Origin: a virus
Length of the DNA stretch: 34,695 nucleotides
IMG/VR virus record: IMGVR_UViG_3300020442_002959
Location: 1 to 34,695 of that record
Reading direction: 5' to 3' (one strand)
The position numbers and the translations under genes are program-made. Positions 2,642-34,322 of the stretch are shown in pieces (the stretch's first letter is position 1; every line of letters starts with the position of its first letter). The notes under the pieces are model-generated. The model did not search any database and was not told the origin of the DNA. It was given only the letters and a program-made list of their open reading frames with translations.

Positions 2642-3823
2642 ATGTCAGAATTATTAGAGAGTCGCTGGCAGGATACTAGAGCTGCACTTCTAGAAGGCCT
2701 ACAAGGCACGAAAAAAAGCGTAATGGCAACGACTTTAGAAAATACAAGAAAGTATTTGAAAGAAAGTGCAACTGCTGGAAGCACGGCTGCTGGAAACGTA
2801 GCAACTCTAAACAGAGTTATCCTACCAGTTATTAGAAGAGTAATGCCTACAGTTATTGCAAATGAGATTGTCGGCGTACAACCAATGACAGGACCAGTTG
2901 GACAAATTCATACACTAAGAGTACGTTACAGTGATGATTTCACCACAACAAATGGTGGAACTGACGTTACTGCAGGTGAAGAAGCATTGTCACCATTCAA
3001 GATTGCTGAAGGTTATTCCGGTAACGAAGCTGATGAAAAAGCCGCAGCTACAGCAGCACTTGAAGGACAAGCTGGTAAAAGAATGTCAATTCAAATCTTA
3101 AAGCAAACTGTTGAAGCTAAAACCAGAAAGCTAAGTGCTCGCTGGACCTTCGAAGCTGCACAAGATGCTCAAGCTATGCATGGAATTGACGTAGAAGCTG
3201 AAATTATGGCTGCTTTAGCCCAAGAAATTACCGCTGAAATTGACCAAGAAGTTCTTGCAAGTCTAAGAGCTTTATCCGGTGCCTTAGCAACTGGGTATGA
3301 TCAAACAGCAGTTTCTGGTACAGCTACATTTGTAGGTGACGAGCATGCTGCATTAGCAGTATTGATTAACAGAGCTGCAAATATTGTTGCTCAGAGAACA
3401 AGAAGAGGCGCTGCTAACTGGGCAGTTGTTTCTCCATTTGCCTTAACAATTCTACAAAGTGCTACAACAAGTGCATTTGCTAGAACAACAGAAGGTACAT
3501 TTGAAGCTCCAACAAATACCAAGATGGTAGGCACATTAAATAATGCAATGAAAGTATATGTTGATACATATGCTGCTGATAATGCACCAGTATTAATTGG
3601 ATATAAAGGTTCAAGTGAAAGTGATGCTGCGGCATTCTATTGCCCATACATTCCGTTAATGAGTAGCGGAGTTGTACTAGATCCTGCAACATTCGAACCA
3701 GTCGTAAGCTTTATGACAAGATATGGATATGTAGAATTAACAAATACAGCTTCATCTCTTGGTAATGCTGCCGATTACTTGAATAAGATTCCAATGGATT
3801 CAGCTACAGTAAGCTTTACATAA
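2642..3823 (+). CDS. 23: Major capsid protein gp23
   Basis: A 393-aa HK97-fold major capsid protein of the T4 type. The N-terminal region (MSELLESRWQDTRAALLEG) is followed by the conserved TLNRVILPVIRRVMPTVIAN segment and a middle part with KRMSIQILKQTVEAKTRKL and RWTFEAAQDA. It forms the hexagonal lattice of the head. A likely maturation site is LKE41|S42 in KYLKES, which would remove 41 residues; T4 gp23 loses 65. The protein is about 130 residues shorter than T4 gp23, suggesting loss of the surface insertion domain; this comparison is from memory. It has a strong AAGGAG site and stops 25 bases before a perfect terminator hairpin. No gp24 vertex paralog follows. Confidence 0.96.
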   Translation: MSELLESRWQDTRAALLEGLQGTKKSVMATTLENTRKYLKESATAGSTAAGNVATLNRVILPVIRRVMPTVIANEIVGVQPMTGPVGQIHTLRVRYSDDFTTTNGGTDVTAGEEALSPFKIAEGYSGNEADEKAAATAALEGQAGKRMSIQILKQTVEAKTRKLSARWTFEAAQDAQAMHGIDVEAEIMAALAQEITAEIDQEVLASLRALSGALATGYDQTAVSGTATFVGDEHAALAVLINRAANIVAQRTRRGAANWAVVSPFALTILQSATTSAFARTTEGTFEAPTNTKMVGTLNNAMKVYVDTYAADNAPVLIGYKGSSESDAAAFYCPYIPLMSSGVVLDPATFEPVVSFMTRYGYVELTNTASSLGNAADYLNKIPMDSATVSFT

Positions 3824-12616: not shown

Positions 12617-14779
12617 TTGACCTTACGTACATCTGGATCCTTATCCATAGCTGAGATAGCTAGTGAATTTTTTGATCCAGCACCGCACAGGATGACAGAA
12701 TTTTATGGCAGAGCGGACGGTTTACCGGATGTTGGACCTATAGGTATTAAAACTTTTTATGGAAAGGCTGCTCCTGATGTGCCTGTTGTAGAGAATCTAA
12801 CTTTTGGACCATCTGCAGCAACTAATTTCCTAACATCTGGAGGATACAATACAACTAGCTGGAGTTCAGGTACTTCTACGGGAACTTGGACATTTGCTAT
12901 GAACAGTTGGATGACGGCTGGTGAAAATGAATGGAAACATCTTGTAGGGAACACTGCTATATCTATTGGTGATTCCGTTTACTTTAGATTAAATGGCAGA
13001 CAAAACACAGGAGGAGCAACAGGAGATGTATTTTACGTAGGGTTAGTTAGCAGTTCGGCTGATCAAAATATTATTAATACAGGATGGACTGGTAATACTG
13101 ACGAACAACGATTAGGTTTTCGATTAGTTTTAAGCACAAATCTATCGCGTAGTGAAGGAGCATTTATTTTTGGGTCAACAAATGCAGATGGACAATTAAT
13201 TATAAATGGAACTTTAGATGATAATATTGAGATTGCTATACAATATGTAAAAAATGACGAAGTTAACGAACAACAAACATTCTTAGTAGGAATTAAACAC
13301 AGCTCAACATATTCTGCAGACACATTTGAGAATGCTTCATATGTTTATGAAGTTTTTGTAAACTCTGCAGATACGACTTGGTATCCTGCACTTGCTGCTG
13401 ATGGAACAGGAGTAACAGTTGCCGATGTTGATCTTGGACAGTATGAGCTACCACATCCTGAAGGTGGAGATGTATATTACATGACAGGAACGAGTCAAAA
13501 AACTACCCTTACAAGGAATAGATACAGTGAAACAGATGATGCAAATTTAATGGATACAAGGGTAGCAAATAGTCTAGGACCTGACTATCGTGCAGCAGAT
13601 TGGAACGATTACAGCTCTATGACAGAAGCGCAATTTGGAGTAATGATAGATACATTTTCTTCAAAGACTGGTTTTAATTCGACTCAAACTGCAGATTATA
13701 CCATAGGTAACATACAATTAAACAATAGCACAGGACCCTACGCACCTAGACGATACTTTATGAGTTATCATAATCATTCTAAACCTAGCTACTATACTGA
13801 CCATTCAAATTATCATAATTACTATGTTACTCTTGGATCTTGGTATGGAACGAATTTGTTTACTATGGCTATATCAACAGCATATGCGGTGTTGTTAGGT
13901 GGTTCATTTTATGACGCACCTAGTAATACAAATTATACACAAGAAAATTATACCCGACGAGCATGGAATACTGGGTCTGGAGATACAAACTTTGGTACTT
14001 TAGGACAAACAACAAGTAGTGGTGCTGGATCGACAAATACCAGCACAATGATGATAACTGGTTATGACGGAATGACAGGAAACCAAAGGGTATTTTTAAA
14101 AGATTTAGCAAGTAATTTCAAAGCAATCTCATGGGGATCATGTGCAGCACCGCATTACATAGGGAAAGCTGCTTCTACGCCAGGTATTTGTATTTTCGCA
14201 GGCGGGTATTACAATCCAAATAGTGTTGGTGGCGAAGCACCTAATACTAAAGTAGTGTCATACAAAAGCTATGACACTGCGACTACAAATGTTAACTATG
14301 GTCAGTTGCTTACTCGCGGAAGACGATCTAATTTTACCACTAGTGATTACGATAATATAGCTTTAGTAGGTGCCGGAGACTGGAGTACTGCTAGATTGAG
14401 CGATACTCAACGAATAGATTTTACAACACAATCAATCGTAAATAGTGCAGGCTTAGGAGAAGTAATGTATGTAATGCAATCAGCATCAAACAATACAACA
14501 GCATACATTACAGGTAATTACGGTAACTCACCATACACTCCGAGAAACTATGTTAAAAGATATGACTATGCAAGTGGGTCGATGAATACAAACTACATGA
14601 ATTTAACTGTGAGTAGCGGTGGAGTAAGTATAAGTGATTTGAATGATATAGTGCTACATGGAGCAGGAACAACATCAAACAGAGTTTGGAGAAAGTTGAG
14701 TTTGAGCAGTAATACTGCTGCAGTAAATTTTGGATCAACAGATTTTAATTCAAGTGCAACCGGACATGGACCAGGATGA
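12617..14779 (+). CDS. Large fibre/adhesin, 720 aa (TTG start)
   Basis: The start is TTG, six bases after a strong AAGGAGA; no in-frame ATG lies near. The N-terminus (SGSLSIAEIASEFFDPAPHRMTEFYGRA...IGIKTFYG) is the short repeated (L/I)xxIAxEF...EFYG unit often found at the start of phage virion proteins. The middle (~50-260) is beta-rich and includes a carbohydrate-binding-module-like stretch (WTFAMNSWMTAGENEWKHL). The last ~350 residues show loosely repeated units of ~50 residues with hydrophobic-GG/GAG strands (VLLGGSF, MITGYDG, IFAGGYY, ALVGAGD, AYITGNY, VLHGAGT), resembling a degenerate kelch-like propeller with about six blades. A host-binding role is inferred. Its stop overlaps the next start (ATGA). 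Confidence 0.65.
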   Translation: MTLRTSGSLSIAEIASEFFDPAPHRMTEFYGRADGLPDVGPIGIKTFYGKAAPDVPVVENLTFGPSAATNFLTSGGYNTTSWSSGTSTGTWTFAMNSWMTAGENEWKHLVGNTAISIGDSVYFRLNGRQNTGGATGDVFYVGLVSSSADQNIINTGWTGNTDEQRLGFRLVLSTNLSRSEGAFIFGSTNADGQLIINGTLDDNIEIAIQYVKNDEVNEQQTFLVGIKHSSTYSADTFENASYVYEVFVNSADTTWYPALAADGTGVTVADVDLGQYELPHPEGGDVYYMTGTSQKTTLTRNRYSETDDANLMDTRVANSLGPDYRAADWNDYSSMTEAQFGVMIDTFSSKTGFNSTQTADYTIGNIQLNNSTGPYAPRRYFMSYHNHSKPSYYTDHSNYHNYYVTLGSWYGTNLFTMAISTAYAVLLGGSFYDAPSNTNYTQENYTRRAWNTGSGDTNFGTLGQTTSSGAGSTNTSTMMITGYDGMTGNQRVFLKDLASNFKAISWGSCAAPHYIGKAASTPGICIFAGGYYNPNSVGGEAPNTKVVSYKSYDTATTNVNYGQLLTRGRRSNFTTSDYDNIALVGAGDWSTARLSDTQRIDFTTQSIVNSAGLGEVMYVMQSASNNTTAYITGNYGNSPYTPRNYVKRYDYASGSMNTNYMNLTVSSGGVSISDLNDIVLHGAGTTSNRVWRKLSLSSNTAAVNFGSTDFNSSATGHGPG

Positions 14780-22972: not shown

Positions 22973-25900
22973 ATGGCAGAAATTAGATTAGGTAGAATTA
23001 AATTTATTTGGAAAAATGAATGGCAAACAAACACTGAATATTTTAAAGATGATTTAGTCAAATATGGAGGTAATACCTATGTTTGTGTTGCTAGGCATAT
23101 AAGTTCTGTTTTTGCAAATGATTTTGCATCATCTTGGAATAGTATTTCAGATGGACAAGAATGGAGAGGCGCATGGACTGTATCTACCTATTACAGAGTA
23201 AACGACATTGTACAATACGGTGGAAAACAATATATTGCAAATACTGAACATCAAAGCACAAGTAATATATATGATGGACTCGTAATTGATATAGAAAAAT
23301 GGACGCCTTTTGGTGAAAATTTTGACTGGAAGGGAGATTGGACTGTTACAACGGTCTATAAGGTCAATGATCTTGTAAAATATAACAGTACAATATACCT
23401 TTGTATAGAACACCATACTTCGACCGACACTGTAGAAGCAGGACTTGAATCACAAATAGATAAATGGATAGTTTATTCTTCTAGTTTAAACTGGACTTCT
23501 AGTTGGTCTACTGATACAAGATATGCAGAAAGAGATCTTGTTAAATATGGTGGAATAATTTATTTGTGTAACACAGGGCATTTAAGTAATGCTGATTTTG
23601 ATTTAGGATTAGAAGCAGATATAACCAAATGGGACGTATTCCATGAAGGAATTGATTATACAGGTGAATGGCAAGCTAGTTATAGATACAAGAAAAATGA
23701 CCTAGTCAAAAAAGGTGGTGGAATATGGATCTGCACACAATATCACAACAGCAATATATTCTCGTCTGATAGTTTAAATTGGCAGCAATTTGTTGAAGGT
23801 TTAGAATTTGAAAATTCTTGGTCAGAGATTGAAAAATATCAACCAGGCGACACAGTTACGTATGGAGGATATGTATATATAACTAATCAGTTACATTCAA
23901 ATAAAGTACCAACAGAAAATCCAGACGTATGGGAACTTTTTTCAACTGGATTTAGATTTAGGGGAGATTGGGGAGAAGATAGTTCACTCCAGGACTATTA
24001 TGTCGGAGATGTAGTTAGATTAGGTGGATATACATATCTATGCATAGAAGATCATCAAAATCAAAAACCGCCAAATACAACATATTGGGAAAGACTTAAT
24101 TCAGGTATATATTGGAAGAGCACATGGACAAATGCAACTGTTTATGATTTAGGCGATTCTGTAAGATACGGTGATAATTCCTACATATGTATATTGGGGC
24201 ACACAGCAGATGATGCTGTGGACCAAAATAGACCTGATCAAACTACAGGCTTTGGTACTGGTGCCACATACTGGGATATTTTATCAGGAGGTCCTGAAAA
24301 CAACGTATTAAATACTCAAGGCGACCTTGTTTATTACAGCGGTGTAGGACCAGCTCGGCTACCAATCGGAAAAGTTGGTCAAGTTTTAGCAGTTAATGCT
24401 GATGGCACTGCTCCTGAATGGAAATATATTGGTCAAATAAATCATGTGGTTTACGTAGAGGGTAACAACGGAGTCAATAAACCGTTGCCTACATATGGTG
24501 GAACTATAAACCATCCGTTTAAAACAATCAGATATGCACTAGAGCAAATAGATAAAGGACCATTGTTTCCTGAAGCAACATATTTATTAGAAGTAAACAG
24601 AGCATTCATCCAAAATGCAGTTGTAGTTTGGGTTGACGCACAAATTACAGCAGGTAATGGAATATGGAGTGGATTTACAAATGATAATATAGAATCATGC
24701 AGGAGAGACATTGGGTTAATATTAGACGCAGTAATTTATGACATGAGACACGGCGGTAATGAAAAAATACGCCTTGCTACACTTACTTACTTTGATAATG
24801 GATCATTAATAGCTGCAATTGCAGATGAAAATGAACAACTTGTTGCATCTATACAACAAATGATAGTTATCATTGATGCAGTAATCAGTAATTTAGATTA
24901 TACTGATGCTAATAACACACTTGTTCAGTATAAGGATAGTAATTATTTAGAAGAGCAAGATGCTCAAATTAGGATTGAAAATTTATTACAGGTTATAATA
25001 CAACCTCTTGCAGCAGAAAACATTGATAATTTAGCAAGAGAATATAAACCTAATAGCACAGTATTTGTAAAAACAGGAAAGTTTGAAGAAACATTACCTA
25101 TGATTGTTCCGCAAAATACTGCTGTTGTAGGTGATGAACTTAGATCTACAAGTATCTATCCTGCAGAAAGTATAACTCACATTTCAGACACTACATACAG
25201 TTTGCAGTCTTTAACACATATGTCTTCATTTATTTCTGATATAATTACAAATACTGCAATAACACCTACCACAGGTAATAGTGAAACGCAATATACCCTA
25301 GGAGTTTCAGGTACAGTAGGAGATGCAACTGCATCTACAAGAATTACAACTGGTGCAACTGAGATAAAAAATATTATAGAAAATGGTGTAGATTCTGCCA
25401 CGGCACTTACATTTTCTGATCCTGGGGTTGTAACAGAACGTCTTTATGCCCGTGAATTAATTCAAGCAAACAAAGATTTTTTATTTTCTGAGATAGAAAC
25501 CTACATAAATGCACAAGTCTCAGCTGCAACTGCTGGAAGTATTTGGGAAAATTTTGATTATGATTCAATCAAGGCAGCAGCATGTGAAAGAGATGTTGCT
25601 TTAATTTTAGATGCTGCAAGTTATGATGTGCAATACAACAGTAGATGGGCAAGTATAATTATTGCAAGAAATTATTATGATAGTTTAGCATTAACTTTAG
25701 AACCAGATGAAAGATTGCCTACAGCTGATGTGTATGATACTTTAGCTGGTTATGTTTCAGATGTTGTAGAGGGAACATATCCTGGACAAACTCTACTTGC
25801 TACACCAGGCAACGTAGGAACAGTAACTGAAGCAGCATATGCATCATCTATGATAAACATTGTAGAGGATGTAATTAGAGATGGGACTTTAGATAACCTA

Positions 25901-28900
25901 CCTGCAGTTGTATATCCAGACCTAACGCATGTTAGCTCAATAATCCAAACTTCAGTTGCAACTATACTTGACAGGAAAAGTAGGATCCAAAACGAAGCAG
26001 TAAGTTATATCCAAAGAGCAAATCCTACTCTTGAATTTAACAAAACAACATGTTTAAGAGATGCAGGATACATGATAGATGCTCTCGTATACGATATGGC
26101 ATTAGATACAAATTATCAGACTCGTTTATCAGGAATATCTTACTACAAAGTTACAACATCTGCTCAAACAGTTTTAAATTATCAGCTATCAGATACCCTG
26201 AGAGCTGTTGACTATTTAGATACAAGTTTAAGTAATCTATCTATAGGCGGACCTGGCGCTAAAGCAGAAGCGTTAATTTCAACAATTCAAGATTATATTA
26301 ATAGCAAAATAAACAGCACAGGCACTGAACCTATAATGACAGGTAGTAATGAACCATTAACTGATACAGATCATACTTATGCAGTTGAAACTATTGAAAA
26401 AAACAGAAAATTTATTGTTAGTGAAATTAATGCATATATTGCAACTACATTTACAGCTACAATACAAGCTTTGTCAGGTACGAATGTAAACACAGATGGA
26501 ACAAATTCTGATTGGTTACAAGTTGGAACAGCAGTTACGTTTTCAAATGTGATAGGTAGTGAAATACAAGCTAATACAACCTATTATGTACATAGTAAAA
26601 CTGATGCAAATAATTTTACTATAAAAGCAGCAAGGACAGACACTGCTCCGATTACCTGGGATGCAGCGGTTGGATCAATGACTATGGATCTAGCATACAA
26701 TGCCGGGTCATGTGAAAGAGATATTAATTCTTACATTGATGCAATAAAATATGATTTGATTTACCCAGGTAATTACAAATCAATATATGCAGGAATTTAT
26801 TACTCAAATGCTGTAACAGGTTCTAAGCTTGAAAACATGTTCCTAATGCACAATGGATCAGGATTAAGAAACTGTTCATTGAATTCTTTAGATGGCAGGA
26901 GCGACGGAACTACTGTAAATCAAAGTATAACTGGTTTAACAGAGGTAAACCCTAACGGTACAGCTAGACCTTTAGCAGGTGCATATGTAAGTCTAGATCC
27001 TGGATGGAATCCACAAGACACAAAACCATGGATTAGGACTAAATCGCCATATGTCCAAAATGTCAGTACTTTTGGAACTGCATGTATCGGTATGAAGGTT
27101 GACGGCGAACTTCATGCAGGTGGCAATGATTCTATAGTTGCAAACGATTTTACACAAATATTGAGTGACGGAATAGGATATTGGGTAACAAACCTTGGAA
27201 GATCAGAATTAGTTTCTGTTTTTACATATTATTGTCATATTGGATATCTAGCAGAAAATGGCGGAAAAGTTAGAGCAACTAACGGTAATAATTCTTATGG
27301 AGATTTTGGATCAGTTTCAGAAGGTGTAGATATTACAGAAATTCCAGTTACTGGTCAAGTAAACAACTATGCATTTACACCTGTTGTTGATAGAGTGTTA
27401 ACTGACGGTAATGAAATAATTGCTTTTGAATATTTAAATGCTGGAAAAGAATTTACTGCTGCAAACACAACAATAACTGTTGTAGGAGACGGTTTTGGTT
27501 ATGTAATTGATTCTGCTCAAACGGTAGACGGAGGTGTGTTTGAGGTACGTATGCTAGATTTAGATGACTCTAGTGGAATTTTTGGCGGTCAAGGTTATTA
27601 TTTTGCTACAAACAGTGCTCAAAATGGTACAACAAACCAAATTACATTATCTAATACTGATGTTGGGTTAGCTTCGCAAGTTATAGGTTTATCAATTTAT
27701 ATTACCGGCGGTAAAGGCACAGGACAGTATGGACAAATTTCAAATTACAATGAAAATACGAAGCTTGCTGATATTGTTAAAATAAGTGACGGAACTGCAG
27801 GATGGGATCAAATGGTAGCCGGTAGAGCTATCGAAGCAACATTAGATGCTACTACAGTCTATACAGTCGAACCATTAATTCAGTTTAGTGATTCAGATAC
27901 ACATCCTGGAGATTACAGTAAAAAAGCAAAAGGCAGACCATTTGTTGAAAATGAGCAAATTGTTAAAATATTAATTTGGGATCCAGGAGAAGGATATACA
28001 GCCGAACCGACAATAACAATTACTGATCCTAACAATATTGCACTAGGTAATCAAGCAGTAACTGATGCTCCAACTCAAGCTAGGATAGGCGATGGTGTAC
28101 TTACCCAACCGCTATGGGCAGCTAACGGACGAGGTAGTGATTTTACAACAGCGACTGTAGAAATTGTAGGAGACGGATACGCTGATTTCTATCAACCAGG
28201 TAATTTATTGCAAGTACAAAATTTGTCCGGTATTCCGTTAGCCGGTTCAAATATAGTGTTTGATCATTTACCTGGACAAGTATTTAAATTAGTAGTAGTA
28301 AGATCTTTGTTAGGAAGTGGTCAAGCAGGGGATCAACCTCCATTTACCGCTCAATTACAAGTTTCACCAGATATTCAAATATCTGAAGCACCAGAAAATA
28401 ATGAAAATTTAACCCTAAGGATTAGGTACAGTCAAATAAGATTAACAGGACATGATTTCCTTGATATTGGAACTGGTAATTTTGTTAACACAAACTATCC
28501 AGGGATTCCGTTACAAGAACCTATCCCTGCCAACGAAACATTAGAAAGCACTGGTGGTAGAGTATTCTTTACGTCAACAGATCAAGATGGAAATTTCCGA
28601 GTTGGAGATTTATTCTCAGTTGAGCAATCAACTGGTGTCGCAACATTGAATGCAGATGCCTTCAATATCAGTGGCCTAAATGAATTGTCACTCGGAGAAC
28701 TTGGATTAGGGCAGACAGGAGCAACTATTACAGAATTTAGTACAGACGGAACATTTACTGCAAATAGTGATGAAATTGTTCCTACCCAAAAAGCTATCAG
28801 GACTTACATTACGTCACAAATTGGAGGCGGTTCGTCTACACTTAACGTAAATAGTATTACTGCTGGCGATATTTTAATTACAGGTACAGAGATTACAACT

Positions 28901-28996
28901 GTAACAGGAAATCAAATCAACATGGAGCAAAAAGTCTATTACAAAAAAGGAGTAGACGGTGTTCCTGTCGCAATGAATTATTTACTTAAAAATTAA
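22973..28996 (+). CDS. Giant modular tail fibre B (CBM-like modules, beta-helix, CxRD repeats)
   Basis: A 2007-aa paralog of fibre A. Eight CBM-like modules fill residues ~8-450, six with the CxxxH motif (for example YVCVARHIS, YLCIEHHTS). A beta-helix begins near 488 (VYVEGNNGVNKP...HPFKTIRYA) but is interrupted twice. The interruptions are at ~535-690 and ~730-1285 and contain four Cys-x-Arg-Asp helical units: CRRDIGLILDAVIYD (~575), CERDVALILDAASYD (~871), CLRDAGYMIDALVYD (~1026) and CERDINSYIDAIKYD (~1246). After the second insertion the helix resumes (FLMHNGSGLRNCSLNSLDG), with the STFGTACIGMKVDG to CHIGYL block shared with fibre A and the C-terminal FTSTDQDGNFRVGDLFSVEQ and PTQKAIRTYI. 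The Asp-box domain of fibre A is absent. A fibre or adhesin role is inferred. GGAG lies six bases before the ATG. Confidence 0.82.
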   Translation: MAEIRLGRIKFIWKNEWQTNTEYFKDDLVKYGGNTYVCVARHISSVFANDFASSWNSISDGQEWRGAWTVSTYYRVNDIVQYGGKQYIANTEHQSTSNIYDGLVIDIEKWTPFGENFDWKGDWTVTTVYKVNDLVKYNSTIYLCIEHHTSTDTVEAGLESQIDKWIVYSSSLNWTSSWSTDTRYAERDLVKYGGIIYLCNTGHLSNADFDLGLEADITKWDVFHEGIDYTGEWQASYRYKKNDLVKKGGGIWICTQYHNSNIFSSDSLNWQQFVEGLEFENSWSEIEKYQPGDTVTYGGYVYITNQLHSNKVPTENPDVWELFSTGFRFRGDWGEDSSLQDYYVGDVVRLGGYTYLCIEDHQNQKPPNTTYWERLNSGIYWKSTWTNATVYDLGDSVRYGDNSYICILGHTADDAVDQNRPDQTTGFGTGATYWDILSGGPENNVLNTQGDLVYYSGVGPARLPIGKVGQVLAVNADGTAPEWKYIGQINHVVYVEGNNGVNKPLPTYGGTINHPFKTIRYALEQIDKGPLFPEATYLLEVNRAFIQNAVVVWVDAQITAGNGIWSGFTNDNIESCRRDIGLILDAVIYDMRHGGNEKIRLATLTYFDNGSLIAAIADENEQLVASIQQMIVIIDAVISNLDYTDANNTLVQYKDSNYLEEQDAQIRIENLLQVIIQPLAAENIDNLAREYKPNSTVFVKTGKFEETLPMIVPQNTAVVGDELRSTSIYPAESITHISDTTYSLQSLTHMSSFISDIITNTAITPTTGNSETQYTLGVSGTVGDATASTRITTGATEIKNIIENGVDSATALTFSDPGVVTERLYARELIQANKDFLFSEIETYINAQVSAATAGSIWENFDYDSIKAAACERDVALILDAASYDVQYNSRWASIIIARNYYDSLALTLEPDERLPTADVYDTLAGYVSDVVEGTYPGQTLLATPGNVGTVTEAAYASSMINIVEDVIRDGTLDNLPAVVYPDLTHVSSIIQTSVATILDRKSRIQNEAVSYIQRANPTLEFNKTTCLRDAGYMIDALVYDMALDTNYQTRLSGISYYKVTTSAQTVLNYQLSDTLRAVDYLDTSLSNLSIGGPGAKAEALISTIQDYINSKINSTGTEPIMTGSNEPLTDTDHTYAVETIEKNRKFIVSEINAYIATTFTATIQALSGTNVNTDGTNSDWLQVGTAVTFSNVIGSEIQANTTYYVHSKTDANNFTIKAARTDTAPITWDAAVGSMTMDLAYNAGSCERDINSYIDAIKYDLIYPGNYKSIYAGIYYSNAVTGSKLENMFLMHNGSGLRNCSLNSLDGRSDGTTVNQSITGLTEVNPNGTARPLAGAYVSLDPGWNPQDTKPWIRTKSPYVQNVSTFGTACIGMKVDGELHAGGNDSIVANDFTQILSDGIGYWVTNLGRSELVSVFTYYCHIGYLAENGGKVRATNGNNSYGDFGSVSEGVDITEIPVTGQVNNYAFTPVVDRVLTDGNEIIAFEYLNAGKEFTAANTTITVVGDGFGYVIDSAQTVDGGVFEVRMLDLDDSSGIFGGQGYYFATNSAQNGTTNQITLSNTDVGLASQVIGLSIYITGGKGTGQYGQISNYNENTKLADIVKISDGTAGWDQMVAGRAIEATLDATTVYTVEPLIQFSDSDTHPGDYSKKAKGRPFVENEQIVKILIWDPGEGYTAEPTITITDPNNIALGNQAVTDAPTQARIGDGVLTQPLWAANGRGSDFTTATVEIVGDGYADFYQPGNLLQVQNLSGIPLAGSNIVFDHLPGQVFKLVVVRSLLGSGQAGDQPPFTAQLQVSPDIQISEAPENNENLTLRIRYSQIRLTGHDFLDIGTGNFVNTNYPGIPLQEPIPANETLESTGGRVFFTSTDQDGNFRVGDLFSVEQSTGVATLNADAFNISGLNELSLGELGLGQTGATITEFSTDGTFTANSDEIVPTQKAIRTYITSQIGGGSSTLNVNSITAGDILITGTEITTVTGNQINMEQKVYYKKGVDGVPVAMNYLLKN

Positions 28997-29008: not shown

Positions 29009-29329
29009 ATGGCAACTGGTAGACTTGGAGTAGCAGATTTAGCATTAGATACTCTTACAACTTTATATCAAGTTCCTGTAGACACATTTACTGTTGCTAC
29101 AGTGTCTTTTTGTAATAGAGGAAATGCACCTATCACAGTTAGGGTAGCAGTAGCAGCTGATGTAACTCCTGCGCTTGCAGAATATATAGAATATGATTGT
29201 GAAATAATGCCAAAAGGTGTATTGGAAAGAACAGGTATTGTTATGGATGCTGAAAAACGCATTATTGTTTGGTCGTCTGCTGCGAATGTTTCTGCAATGG
29301 CCTTTGGTATAGAGACAACAACTTTATAA
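29009..29329 (+). CDS. Conserved small virion protein (GRLGVADL type)
   Basis: A 106-aa beta-rich protein with MATGRLGVADLALDTLTTLY, VATVSFCNRGNAPITVRVAV, EYIEYDCEIMPKGVLERTGI and VSAMAFGIE, features of a small structural protein common in marine T4-like phages. The N-terminal GRLG recalls the GRISG start of fibres, though beyond this it follows the small beta-sandwich style of the products at 6044, 9535 and 17185 only loosely. It has two cysteines. GGAG is seven bases before the ATG. Its stop codon overlaps the next late promoter. A connector or fibre-base role is possible. Confidence 0.65.
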   Translation: MATGRLGVADLALDTLTTLYQVPVDTFTVATVSFCNRGNAPITVRVAVAADVTPALAEYIEYDCEIMPKGVLERTGIVMDAEKRIIVWSSAANVSAMAFGIETTTL

Positions 29330-29350: not shown

Positions 29351-29680
29351 ATGGGAAGATATATATCGACTACAGGAACAGCTGGTGCTGTTTTTCGGCA
29401 AGTATCTAATAATTATGTAGCAAAAGTTAATGATAGAATGTTACTTGACAGCAGTTCAATTGCATTTACTGTTACTTTACCTGCACCAGGTACGCTATTA
29501 GAAAATGATACTGTGCAATTTTTAGACATAGGTCAATTTTTAACAACTAACAATGTTACAGTAGATGCGAACGGTGGAGAAATCATGGGAGATAGCGATC
29601 TTATCCTAAACGTAAACGGTACAACTGTTACTCTCGTTTATACCGGAGTTGCAGGCATTGGTTGGTTTGTATCTGCATAA
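29351..29680 (+). CDS. Small fibre-domain virion protein, 109 aa
   Basis: A 109-aa beta-rich protein in a form common among phage fibre domains: NNYVAKVNDRMLLDSSSIAF, then VTLPAPGTLLENDTVQFLD, NVTVDANGGEIMGDSDLIL and VTLVYTGVAGIGWFV. In other phages this domain is often part of a longer fibre; here it stands alone. AAGGAAAA is six bases before the ATG. It is transcribed just ahead of the three Cys-rich adhesins and may connect them to the virion; this is inference. Confidence 0.62.
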   Translation: MGRYISTTGTAGAVFRQVSNNYVAKVNDRMLLDSSSIAFTVTLPAPGTLLENDTVQFLDIGQFLTTNNVTVDANGGEIMGDSDLILNVNGTTVTLVYTGVAGIGWFVSA

Positions 29681-29692
29681 TTTGGAGAAAAA

Positions 29693-30631
29693 ATGGCAAA
29701 ATTGTCACAACTAGTCCAATCTAAGAACTTAGACAACTATGTAGATGTAGGATTAGAAAAAGGAGAAATATGGGGATATGCTCCTGCAATGGATTTAGGA
29801 TTTGCTCCCCAAATAAAATGGCAACCTAGTGGGCCAGGTAGAGCTATAGTTGAAGTGTGGGGTGCTGGCGGCTCTGGAGCTAGAATGTGCTGTTGTGGAT
29901 ACGGCCTACCAGGAAATTCAGGTGCGTATGCTAGGAAAACATTATGTTTTACACCTAGTAACTATTCAACATCATATATCTGCGGATGCATAGGACAATC
30001 ATGCGGTAATGCCAGTTCTTTATGCTGCAGAGGTACATCAAGTCCAACTTGTTTATTTTACACATTTGATAATGAAACAACAACCGCTGTAATCTGTGCT
30101 CAAGGAGGAAAAGGTGGATGGTCTATATGTGAAACTAGCGGATGCAATATCCCTGCTGGTATATTAAAAAATACACCTTGCTCAGGAGGATGTTGTACTT
30201 GGTGTGGCTTAGCTTTTGGAGGAGACATTAATTGTCCGTCTAATATTTCTTGCTTATGGTTAAGTACAAATATAGCTAATTGTCCATGTTCATATGTTGA
30301 AACTATCGCAGGACCTCCATATCAATACAGCACTGGAGGAGCCTGTATGATGGTGCAACCAGGTGCTGATAATGTAACAACAATGTGGTCAGGAGGCGGA
30401 CCTGAACATTCATATGTTATCTCAGCAACAAGTAGGAATCCTAGCCAAGGCAATCCATGGACATTTTGTTGGGGTGCCAAAGCATGCGGTTGCTATGAAA
30501 ACGAAGGATGTGTTTATTATACCCCACCAGGACACGGAGGTTATCCGGCACACCCATGTCCAAGTGTTAGGGATCATGGCGGAAGAGGCGGATCTGGAGC
30601 TATAAGAATAAGATTTGTAAAGGATAGTTAA
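29693..30631 (+). CDS. Cys/Gly-rich putative adhesin, paralog 1
   Basis: A 312-aa protein with 27 cysteines (8.7%) and abundant glycine, without signal peptide or membrane segment. The N-terminal ~50 residues (MAKLSQLVQSKNLDNYVDVG) form an attachment-like region. Then come VEVWGAGGSGARMCCCGYG, PGNSGAYARK, CAQGGKGGW, FGGDINCPSNIS, CGCYENEGCVYYTPP and the C-terminal RDHGGRGGSGAIRIRFV. The WGAGGSG start and GGRGGSGAIRIRF end are typical of Gly-rich phage tail proteins (Gly_rich_2-like), but the high Cys content is unusual and suggests disulfides or bound metal. It is first of three adjacent paralogs; GGAG lies six bases before the ATG. A receptor-binding role is inferred from position and family style. 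Confidence 0.75.
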   Translation: MAKLSQLVQSKNLDNYVDVGLEKGEIWGYAPAMDLGFAPQIKWQPSGPGRAIVEVWGAGGSGARMCCCGYGLPGNSGAYARKTLCFTPSNYSTSYICGCIGQSCGNASSLCCRGTSSPTCLFYTFDNETTTAVICAQGGKGGWSICETSGCNIPAGILKNTPCSGGCCTWCGLAFGGDINCPSNISCLWLSTNIANCPCSYVETIAGPPYQYSTGGACMMVQPGADNVTTMWSGGGPEHSYVISATSRNPSQGNPWTFCWGAKACGCYENEGCVYYTPPGHGGYPAHPCPSVRDHGGRGGSGAIRIRFVKDS

Positions 30632-30637
30632 TCAAAA

Positions 30638-31666
30638 ATGGCAAATTTATCAGATTTAATTCAAAAAAAGGTTGACTTTTTTGAATACGAAAGACTAGAA
30701 ACAGGAAATATTTCTACATACGCTCCTCAAGGTTACGTAAATTATTGTCGAAATATCCATTGGGTATGCGTTAACAGCGGAAAAATGACTATAGAAATAT
30801 GGGGGTCAGGAGGATCTGGAGCTAAGATGTGTTGTTGTGGAGTAGGAATACCTGGCAACCCAGGCGCTTATGCTAGGAAAACTTTCTACTATCATGCAAA
30901 CGATGTTGTATGTGGATACACAGGTAAATCATGCAACAATTCAAACGATCTTTGTTTTAGAGGCTGTAGTCAGGCAAGTTGTGCATACTATGTATCATGT
31001 GATAGTAGATACCAAGATAGAAATTGGTGTATGTGTGCCCAAGGTGGTCGAGGCGGAGTGAGTTACTGCTCAACTACTACATCAGGCGTATGCTGCTTTG
31101 GAGGCAATGGTTATTGTAGGACCATATGCGGCGATAGATGCGGAATTGCCTGTAACTATCATCAAAGTTGTATGAACTTTAATCCTGCTCAGGCATATGG
31201 TGGCGATGTGAATTGTCCGGGATCTTTCAGTTGCACTGTATGGCACTGTTTGCATCCAAATAGACCATGCAATATTACATATTCAATATCAGGACCTCCT
31301 GGAATGTTTTCAGACAAAGGTGTAAAATTAAATTTCCCTATTGAAGAAAATACAATGCATTCGAATTGGTCAGGAAATGGTCCGTTCCAGTATGTCTATG
31401 CCCTCAATGGTGCGAGTAAAATGCCTTCGGGCGGAGGTACTGAAACAAGATGTATTAATAACGCAAGACATTGTGGTTGTTATGATCATCACGGATGCAT
31501 AGAATATGTACCTCCTGGTTTTCCAGGATTACCACCTAGTCAGTGTGCTGGTGTAAGAGACCATGCAACACGCGGTGGCAGCGGAATGGTAAGGATAAAA
31601 TTTATTCCTGAAGGAGAACCGGACTTCACTGATCAATATTACCATAGATTAACAGGAACAGGATAA
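30638..31666 (+). CDS. Cys/Gly-rich putative adhesin, paralog 2
   Basis: A 342-aa paralog with 30 cysteines (8.8%). Conserved blocks are IEIWGSGGSGAKMCCCGVG, PGNPGAYARK, CAQGGRGGV, YGGDVNCPG, CGCYDHHGCIEYVPP and RGGSGMVRIKF. Between QGGRGG and YGGDVN it carries a variable stretch dense in Cys (YCRTICGDRCGIACNYHQSC). A C-terminal extension of about 20 residues (EGEPDFTDQYYHRL) is unique to this copy. It begins six bases after the previous stop with a weak ribosome site, so coupling to the upstream gene is likely. Function as for paralog 1. Confidence 0.75.
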   Translation: MANLSDLIQKKVDFFEYERLETGNISTYAPQGYVNYCRNIHWVCVNSGKMTIEIWGSGGSGAKMCCCGVGIPGNPGAYARKTFYYHANDVVCGYTGKSCNNSNDLCFRGCSQASCAYYVSCDSRYQDRNWCMCAQGGRGGVSYCSTTTSGVCCFGGNGYCRTICGDRCGIACNYHQSCMNFNPAQAYGGDVNCPGSFSCTVWHCLHPNRPCNITYSISGPPGMFSDKGVKLNFPIEENTMHSNWSGNGPFQYVYALNGASKMPSGGGTETRCINNARHCGCYDHHGCIEYVPPGFPGLPPSQCAGVRDHATRGGSGMVRIKFIPEGEPDFTDQYYHRLTGTG

Positions 31667-31669
31667 GAA

Positions 31670-32668
31670 ATGAATTTAAGACAACTAGTTTATGAACGCT
31701 CGATAACAGATAGAATGGAACATAATTTGGAACAAGGTGAACTTTGGGTCTATACAAATGGAAATGTTCTTGCAAATTGGCGTAGTCAGCATAATGGTGA
31801 CGGGAGCATATGTTGGAAGTCTCCTGGAGACGGAACTGCAGTTATTGAGATTTGGGGATCAGGCGGATCACAAGGACGGATGTGTTGTTGTGGAGTAGGA
31901 TTACCTGGAAATTCTGGTGCATATTCAAAAAAGTCAATAACTGTAAATTCATCAAGTTACATTTACGCAAAACCTGCAATATCTCTAAAAAGTGAAACAT
32001 TATGCTTTGCTGGATGCGGTGATGCTACATGTCTTTGTTGGATTGGATCCACAGGTAATGGTTGTATGTGTGCCCAAGGAGGACTAGGCGGTAACGCTAT
32101 TTGCCAAACAAGTACAACTTCGTCATATTGTTGCTATGTAGCATTAGGATTCTGTAATGATAGATTTGGCCTTAGTGATTTTTGTGGAAGAATTTGTAAT
32201 TTATCTTCATCAAGATCATGGGAAGCAAATGCGTACGGCGGCGATATAAATTGCCCAGGAAACATAAGCCAAGCAATTTTTTATTGTTGCGGTGGTGGAA
32301 CGCTTAACACTAGATGTAAAACGTATTACTTTACTGCACCACCTCCAGGCATGTACGCAGATGGCGGCGGAGGCGGAATGATGTACACTGGAATGGATGA
32401 TGCACGTAACTCACCTTTACCAGGAATGATGATGAACCAAGCTGGCGGGAGTTATGGAATGATGTCGCACAGTCCAAGTAGAGGAATACCGAGATCTGCT
32501 TGTTGGAGATCTTTGCGACAATGCTCATGTTATGAACATAATTATTCTTGTGTTCCTTACACACCTCCTGCATGGGGTGCTCCAGGTTCAATGATGTGTG
32601 CCAATATTAGAGATTCAGGCGGCCGTGGAGGCATGGGCGTTGTCAGAATAAGATTTATAGAAAGTTAA
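31670..32668 (+). CDS. Cys/Gly-rich putative adhesin, paralog 3
   Basis: A 332-aa paralog with 25 cysteines (7.5%). Shared blocks are IEIWGSGGSQGRMCCCGVG, PGNSGAYSKK, CAQGGLGGN, YGGDINCPG, CSCYEHNYSCVPYTPP and RDSGGRGGMGVVRIRF. A Met/Gly-rich loop (GGGGGMMYTGMDD, then PGMMMNQAGG) is specific to this copy and replaces sequence present in the others. It starts three bases after the previous stop. The three copies have diverged well beyond DNA near-identity, so the duplications are not recent. They may form a heteromeric tip or be alternative adhesins. Confidence 0.75.
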   Translation: MNLRQLVYERSITDRMEHNLEQGELWVYTNGNVLANWRSQHNGDGSICWKSPGDGTAVIEIWGSGGSQGRMCCCGVGLPGNSGAYSKKSITVNSSSYIYAKPAISLKSETLCFAGCGDATCLCWIGSTGNGCMCAQGGLGGNAICQTSTTSSYCCYVALGFCNDRFGLSDFCGRICNLSSSRSWEANAYGGDINCPGNISQAIFYCCGGGTLNTRCKTYYFTAPPPGMYADGGGGGMMYTGMDDARNSPLPGMMMNQAGGSYGMMSHSPSRGIPRSACWRSLRQCSCYEHNYSCVPYTPPAWGAPGSMMCANIRDSGGRGGMGVVRIRFIES

Positions 32669-32679
32669 AAAGGAAAAAT

Positions 32680-33321
32680 ATGAAAAAAGCATTTACAGCA
32701 GTTATACCAGATGCACCATATTCAGGTGTAGTTACTCAAAATAAGACAGTAAATTGCATGTACAACGGATACAGATATCATGTGATAGCAGTTAATAGAG
32801 TATCAAAAATCGTAGATTACGTGTCTGGATCGTATGAAACCTTAGATGACATTAACATCTCGCATCACACAGATGAGGATCCAAATATTTATTTTATAAC
32901 ATTAGATGCGAATGAAAATCCATGGGAAGCTGCATACATCACAGAAGAGTATACACATGACCCGGTACCAGATTATGTAGAAGAATTACCAGATGGTACA
33001 GAATATCGCTATATATATTCTCAAGATAATGTTGTTACAGAAGTATACAATCATTTACAACTGCAATATGAAAATGGAAATTTTATTAAGCCCAGTTATA
33101 GGACTCATATGATTTCAAAAGAAGATTATTGGGCAGGTGTAGATGAACATATTGCAAATGTAGAAAGTGAATTAGCCAATCACAGCGATAAATATCTACC
33201 AGAAGATATACAAGTTTTACAAGAAGCATTACAGGGGATGCAAAATCTAAAAACCCAAATGGCAGATGTAGATCATTGGAAACTTGATTGGCCGTGGATG
33301 TTGCCAGATCGCAACATTTAA
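32680..33321 (+). CDS. Hypothetical protein after the adhesin cluster
   Basis: A 213-aa acidic, Tyr/Asp/Glu-rich protein. The N-terminal ~110 residues look mixed alpha/beta; the C-terminal ~90 are helical (YLPEDIQVLQEALQGMQNL) and end in a Trp-rich tail (VDHWKLDWPWMLPDRNI). No family is recognised. It is last in the adhesin block, with AAGGAAAA ahead of its ATG; the position suits a fibre-assembly chaperone, as with T4 gp38, but this is weak inference. A hairpin and T-run overlap its stop. Confidence 0.55.
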   Translation: MKKAFTAVIPDAPYSGVVTQNKTVNCMYNGYRYHVIAVNRVSKIVDYVSGSYETLDDINISHHTDEDPNIYFITLDANENPWEAAYITEEYTHDPVPDYVEELPDGTEYRYIYSQDNVVTEVYNHLQLQYENGNFIKPSYRTHMISKEDYWAGVDEHIANVESELANHSDKYLPEDIQVLQEALQGMQNLKTQMADVDHWKLDWPWMLPDRNI

Positions 33322-33374: not shown

Positions 33375-34322
33375 ATGGAGAATATGGAAAGATCAAAGGC
33401 GTTTTTTATAAATGGGGGAGCAGGCAGGGTTATCTGTTCTGTTCCTGCGTTTGAACTTTACGAACAAGAATCAACTGATAAAGATTTTATTATTGTATGC
33501 GAGGGTGGAACTGAATTATTTAAAGGCCATCCTACATTAGATCAACGAACTTACGATATTTGGCACAAAAATTTATTCAAAGATCAGCTTGTCAATAGGA
33601 ATATTGTCAGTTTAGAACCTTATAGGATTTGGGAATATTATAACCAAAAATGCAGTTTATCCCAAGCTTTTGATATAGAAATAAACAATAAAGGGATTAG
33701 AGATCTACCTAAACCTACACTCCAACTGTCTAAGCATGAACTTTTGTTGGGCAGACAATTAACTAGTGAAATTAAAAAAACATTAAATAAACAAAAAATT
33801 ATTGTTGTTCAACCATTTGGTAGAGGTATTGAGCACATAGACGGATCATTTGTAGATAGTACGTCTAGAAGTATAGAGTATGCTGATTTAAAGTCTTTAA
33901 TAAAAAAATTACAAGACAAACATTTTGCTGTTGTATTAATGTCAGAAATGAAACTGGACACCTCTACATTTGGATGCAAAGACGATATTGCACAACCAGA
34001 AAATTTAAATTTACGGCAGTGGGCAGCAGTTATAAAACAATCTAATCATTTTTTTGGTTGTGATAGTTTAGGTCAACATCTAGCGTATGCAGTCAAATGT
34101 CCTACTACTGTAGTTATAGGTTCAACATTTCCAATTAATGTATCATATCCTAATGAAAAAACTTTTAATATTTTAGACTTAGGCGAATTCCAAAGAGAGT
34201 ACAGTCCTATTAGGATAACAATGGATGAAAGGATTGATCGAAAACATGAGACAATTATGGCTATGACTCCTGAAATCCAAGATTACACTATTAACGCTAT
34301 ATTAGGAAAAAAACAAAAATGA
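33375..34322 (+). CDS. GT9-like (heptosyltransferase-type) glycosyltransferase
   Basis: A 315-aa protein with a GT-B fold signature of family GT9. The N-terminal residues FINGGAGRVICSVPAFELY match the phosphate-loop region near the start of heptosyltransferases. Residues 228-251 (GCDSLGQHLAYAV, then TTVVIGST) match their nucleotide-sugar site (usually GxDTGxxHLAxA...xxLFGxT). It would transfer a sugar from a nucleotide donor; substrate and acceptor are unknown. The start is uncertain: ATG 33375 lacks a ribosome site, and ATG 33384 has GGAG only three bases upstream. Its end overlaps the next gene by four bases (ATGA). Phages use such genes to alter host surface glycans or to decorate their own proteins; here the pairing with a carbamoyltransferase suggests glycan biosynthesis. 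Confidence 0.75.
   Translation: MENMERSKAFFINGGAGRVICSVPAFELYEQESTDKDFIIVCEGGTELFKGHPTLDQRTYDIWHKNLFKDQLVNRNIVSLEPYRIWEYYNQKCSLSQAFDIEINNKGIRDLPKPTLQLSKHELLLGRQLTSEIKKTLNKQKIIVVQPFGRGIEHIDGSFVDSTSRSIEYADLKSLIKKLQDKHFAVVLMSEMKLDTSTFGCKDDIAQPENLNLRQWAAVIKQSNHFFGCDSLGQHLAYAVKCPTTVVIGSTFPINVSYPNEKTFNILDLGEFQREYSPIRITMDERIDRKHETIMAMTPEIQDYTINAILGKKQK

Follow-up and report, generated by a model that had tools for sequence, protein, structure and literature searches.

Three adjacent cysteine-rich proteins of a T4-like phage, most likely tail-fibre-tip adhesins, share a conserved cysteine core

Three adjacent genes of an aquatic T4-like phage encode proteins that carry 25 to 30 cysteines each and that are most likely tail-fibre-tip adhesins, because the structure predicted for one of them shows a TNF-like plus glycine-rich ('TG') fold and finds its best solved match in the fibre of cyanophage Pam3. 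That the three proteins are adhesins, whatever their cysteines do, we hold with high confidence. The fuller proposal, in which they sit at the long tail fibre tip as receptor-binding adhesins and their core cysteines form disulfides after release of the particle, has in our judgement an even chance of being correct as a whole. The cysteine-rich adhesin form is widespread and is undescribed in the open-access literature searched; the fold itself is already known for phage adhesins.

The window (i.e., the whole 34.7 kb virus record that was analysed) encodes a head maturation protease and a Gp23-type major capsid protein (E 8.1e-98), a match that places the virus among the T4-like phages; Gp23-type capsid proteins were found in 14 of 16 records. 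Within the window, the three open reading frames at 29693-32668 follow a large tail fibre gene and two small genes (Table 1); in nearly all relatives, too, the cysteine-rich genes directly adjoin a pair of small tail genes preceded by a large fibre gene. The best of the eight CBM_5_12 (carbohydrate-binding) matches in the tail fibre lies at residues 16-46. Genes of 106 aa occupy the matching position in S-CAM1, S-CAM3, and P-SSM2, and S-CAM1 and P-SSM2 also have, between the module and a carbamoyltransferase gene, a gene similar in size to the first one past the module in the window. A cyanobacterial host for the clade of the window was considered and found unsupported, as psbA was absent in 15 relatives, including records of 353 and 364 kb.

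Table 1. Features of the window, with positions counted from its first nucleotide
Feature	Coordinates	Strand	Remarks
T4-type major capsid protein match	2798..3751	+	Gp23, PF07068
2007 aa tail fibre	22973..28996	+	phrog_9851; eight CBM_5_12-like repeats; presumed shaft bearing the adhesins
106 aa conserved gene	29009..29329	+	tail-fibre-like; candidate connector
109 aa conserved gene	29351..29680	+	tail-protein-like; directly upstream of the trio; candidate connector
Cys-rich adhesin copy 1 (putative)	29693..30631	+	312 aa, 27 C; Pfam Gly_rich_2, phrog_4205
MCCCGYG motif of copy 1	29885..29905	+	first glycine-rich loop; strongly conserved
Cys-rich adhesin copy 2 (putative)	30638..31666	+	342 aa, 30 C; predicted TNF-like + glycine-rich fold
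MCCCGVG motif of copy 2	30827..30847	+	counterpart of the MCCCG loop motif
Cys-rich adhesin copy 3 (putative)	31670..32668	+	332 aa, 25 C
MCCCGVG motif of copy 3	31880..31900	+	counterpart of the MCCCG loop motif
213 aa protein	32680..33321	+	phrog_9740 family; after the trio in nearly all relatives; candidate assembly chaperone
phrog_8954 protein	33375..34322	+	weak glycosyltransferase-9 match; first gene past the module

A preliminary description of this DNA had pointed to three adjacent proteins of 312-342 aa with 7.5-9% cysteine, and both the genes and their composition are as described; cysteine makes up 8.7, 8.8, and 7.5% of copies 1, 2, and 3 (27, 30, and 25 residues), respectively, against a background of 0.56% (56/10067) in the 26 other genes of the window (binomial tails of 2e-23, 5e-26, and 2e-20). 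Cysteine and glycine together account for 22.5-24% of each copy. The copies are about 40% identical to one another, and the motifs said to be kept across them are indeed present in all three, namely MCCCGxG, NCP, and CxCY...C..Y.PP, the last with one extra residue inserted in copy 3. The phrog_4205 profile matches all three copies over most of the protein (E 5.6e-13, 1.4e-12, and 2.3e-18), and Pfam Gly_rich_2 (PF21722) matches copy 1 at 28.5 bits, above its gathering cut-off of 24.3; the same profile search gave no match at E 1 for copies 2 and 3. Both phrog_4205 and phrog_35878 are labelled 'unknown function', and the annotations examined for these two families and for Gly_rich_2 do not record cysteine-richness.

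Evidence for the adhesin assignment, which had been a guess in the preliminary description and is now backed by a predicted structure, comes from a single-chain AF2 model of copy 2 built on an alignment of 91 sequences from the window and the fetched loci (pLDDT 82.9, pTM 0.84). Its best solved match is the Pam3 fibre 7ypx (Z 14.5, rmsd 3.5, 195 residues aligned), followed by the Bxb1 tail tip (Z 11.7) and the TG domains of ALK/LTK (Z ~8-9), while unrelated entries in the comparison stayed at Z <4. For copies 1 and 3, the same predicted fold is assumed by homology, at the identity given above; a search by sequence returned no relatives with a solved structure. Residues 22-328 of the copy 2 model resemble the TNF-like sandwich and glycine-rich loop domain of Pam3 gp24 (PDB 7ypx, 7yfw), and 28 of the 30 cysteines fall within residues 56-316, the glycine-rich loop part between TNF-like strands, which corresponds to the place of the glycine loops in Pam3. 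By analogy with Pam3, the CCC of the first loop WGSGGSGAKMCCCGVGIPGNPGAY would point towards the distal turn.

There are also differences from Pam3. Pam3 has one fibre gene, for which no cysteines are discussed, whereas the window has three genes with about 30 cysteines each; its glycine-rich domain comprises 125 residues (PMC9608196) with 39% glycine, whereas the loop part here runs to about 260 residues and is poorer in glycine; and its long N-terminal helical shaft docks to the baseplate, whereas copy 2 has at its N-terminus only a 10-residue helix (residues 4-13), predicted with low confidence. The glycine-rich adhesins of T4-like phages (S16 gp38 type; Syn9 gp36 and gp38) are likewise rich in glycine and adjoin the tail fibre. 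The middle domain of S16 gp38 is a beta-helix (PMC9608196), and the S16 gp38-type polyglycine-II adhesin 6F45 is absent among the matches listed for the copy 2 model. Syn9 gp38 was found as a BFVD structural match; it has 2 cysteines and 22% glycine, and Syn9 gp36 has 8 cysteines and 35% glycine, compared with 25-30 cysteines in the trio. Since these adhesin-like proteins of a related phage have only 2-8 cysteines, the cysteine-rich form is a variant and not a requirement of the fold. The TG domain of ALK/LTK, a ligand-binding domain of animal receptors, shows a similar arrangement, for which no homology with the trio is claimed.

A possible further likeness to Pam3 concerns the gene that follows the trio. 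Pam3 gp24 works with the chaperone gp25, which combines a beta-sandwich with a helical part, and the 213 aa protein, modelled with high confidence (pLDDT 93.9), has a beta-rich N-terminal part and a C-terminal helical hairpin, in line with the gp25 build. A comparison of the model against the PDB gave no significant match, gp25 and TfaMu included; by position and build, the protein is a candidate assembly chaperone. Its phrog_9740 match is weak (0.006), while a relative and the S-CAM1 protein match at 3e-8 and 2e-122, respectively.

Five relatives were found in a first scan, and the homologue search that had been proposed, carried out as an alignment-based scan, confirmed 239 stretches as related, of which the best 80 of 239 (79 distinct loci) were kept. 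In nearly all of the 79 loci the order is a large fibre gene, a 106 aa gene, a 108-110 aa gene, three cysteine-rich genes, and a gene of about 215 aa. Loci L053 and L060 have four cysteine-rich copies; L005, L083, L084, and L085 have a single copy, preceded by other genes (~320, 112, and 166-172 aa). An additional copy at L006:116-478 is cut off near the start of that stretch. Locus L088 (PAOW01000006), binned as a marine euryarchaeote ('Euryarchaeota archaeon' MAG), carries two copies followed by a 216 aa gene and is probably a mis-binned phage contig, because its gene content matches the phage module.

Cultured cyanophages also carry two or three cysteine-rich genes at the equivalent locus, annotated 'hypothetical protein'; the sets contain 36, 31, and 25 cysteines in S-CAM1, 36, 35, and 24 in S-CAM3, 36 and 36 in P-SSM2, 28, 28, and 25 in Sf-FS3, and 29, 28, and 30 in S-SSM7. 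The isolate proteins tested match PHROGs labelled 'unknown function', with phrog_4205 as the best for S-CAM1 (3e-94) and Sf-FS3, and copies from S-CAM1, S-CAM3, and Sf-FS3 pass the Gly_rich_2 cut-off. A tblastn search against phages found S-CAM1 with copy 3 as query and gave no match with copy 1 or a copy from L006. No description of cysteine-rich cyanophage tips, of these genes, or of their PHROG was found in the open-access literature. Two annotated prolyl-4-hydroxylase/2OG-Fe(II) dioxygenase genes lie near the Sf-FS3 trio (L092:8588-9220 and 13411-13956), and a 2OG-Fe(II) oxygenase is found in the neighbourhood of the S-SSM7 genes; these enzymes are possible modifiers of the adhesins. Marine virus AG-345-P14 (MH319766; L094:5117-5962) encodes, after a fibre gene and a 105-106 aa gene, a 282 aa protein with 26 cysteines (9.2%) that occupies the same locus as the trio and has no detectable sequence relation to its family; from this case, cysteine enrichment may track the tip position instead of one fold.

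The preliminary description had also held that many of the cysteines are under selection, and conservation within the family bears this out. In an alignment of 179 non-identical sequences, 22 columns are at least 85% cysteine among the full-length rows, from which column percentages were taken; copies 1, 2, and 3 of the window hold 15, 20, and 20 of these 22 core cysteines, respectively. Across 72 independent close pairs (mean identity 84%), core cysteines were retained in 99.2% of cases, more than any other residue, compared with 86.8% for other cysteines, 86.4% for glycine, and 80.2% for tryptophan; cysteines that vary freely among homologues, named beforehand as a refuting result, are thus absent from the core columns. 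Column entropy is 0.84 bits for cysteine and 2.02 bits for residues other than cysteine and glycine, which argues for a scaffold with variable residues between its fixed points; the first loop is the best-conserved part, at 0.75 bits. Some cysteine columns change together, among them 605-609 and 352-774, and a pair map by co-variation was attempted and set aside, as there were too few changes and few pairs passed the multiple-test limit.

As roles for the cysteines, the preliminary description had offered a tip locked by disulfides, metal or Fe-S binding, or a covalent network. For the core cysteines, the most likely role is in disulfides formed after lysis, which we favour because these parts of the protein would be outside the cell, in water, and because loops longer and poorer in glycine than those of Pam3 would need bracing. 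If all cysteines were paired within the chain, mostly even counts would be expected; however, 50 of 96 representatives have even and 46 odd counts, the cysteine sum of the trio is even in 26 of 57 cases, and 16 of the 37 close pairs with any cysteine difference differ at exactly one. This balance, together with the single changes, argues against all cysteines being disulfide-bonded, and full pairing is not supported. A near-constant core with a singly changing periphery suits either disulfides or metal sites in the core, together with extra thiols. Three cysteines in a row (CCC) make an awkward arrangement for disulfide bonding. A search for a phage-encoded Erv-type sulfhydryl oxidase gave no match, as did its search control; of 16 records, one has thioredoxin and three have glutaredoxin.

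The CCC, CxC, and CC clusters and the lack of preference for even counts would also suit thiolate metal sites (Zn, Fe, or Fe-S) that build a compact distal cap, in the way that iron contributes to the tail tips of some other phages, and a precedent may exist in an Alteromonas phage tail fibre, for which six potential iron-binding domains have been proposed (PMC11705849); however, the invariant columns include no conserved histidine, the cysteines are scattered over all loops, and about 30 thiols far exceed what one metal site needs, so that we consider metal binding unlikely. Cysteines that stay mostly reduced, either as small packing residues in a glycine lattice or as thiols that bind or exchange with a receptor on the host surface, could account for the tolerance of single changes outside the core and for a combined cysteine and glycine content close to that of the cysteine-poor Syn9 gp38 (22.6%). 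Replacements of cysteine in close relatives are, however, most commonly T, Q, S, R, and N and rarely A, unlike what simple packing would predict, and thiols left free in oxygenated water are prone to oxidation; this explanation, too, seems improbable. We regard as more doubtful still a redox- or metal-gated heterotrimeric cap, formed by the three orthologous Cys-rich TG subunits, that is reduced and flexible in the cell and, on release, locks by oxidation or metal uptake or reacts with thiols on the host surface; if it were true, infectivity would depend on water chemistry.

As to why there are three copies, in a tree of 160 sequences they cluster according to their position even between distant phages, and two lineages show re-duplication; the position labels require 11 changes compared with a mean of 62 and a minimum of 50 in 1000 shuffles within loci. 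The three copies are thus positional orthologues, kept over deep divergence, and three distinct chains have been maintained. This orthology, the near-constant presence of three copies in relatives, and the trimeric state of the TNF-like fibre of Pam3 (PMC9608196) would all suit one obligate heterotrimer on a threefold fibre tip, a tentative idea that we hold to be possible but not probable, given that P-SSM2 has two copies, that L053 and L060 have four and L005 and L083-L085 one, that copies were re-duplicated, and that orthology by itself is no proof of contact. Three separate homotrimeric adhesins, forming a receptor repertoire, fit the data as well.

Taken together with the proposed disulfide formation in the core, the adhesin reading suggests the following mechanism. 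In each protein, a short N-terminal helix would dock on the long tail fibre of the T4-like phage. Next to it would come a TNF-like beta sandwich and then, in the distal part, long glycine-rich loops, the same layout as in Pam3 gp24; in this lineage the distal part would have roughly double the length of its Pam3 counterpart and hold almost all the ~30 cysteines. Presumably located at the fibre tip, the proteins may assemble as trimers or as a heterotrimer. Once the particle has left the reducing cell, the roughly 22 core cysteines would form disulfides that staple the loops into a rigid scaffold for variable residues, which may contact the receptor, and peripheral cysteines beyond the core would be gained and lost singly.

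About 30 cysteines per protein, made in a reducing bacterial cytoplasm and with core positions better conserved than glycine or tryptophan, pose a real folding question. As the family is present in the cultured phages P-SSM2, S-SSM7, and S-CAM1, any dependence of host recognition in natural waters on disulfides or metals is testable there. Many uncultured T4-like phages are also given a likely receptor-binding protein.
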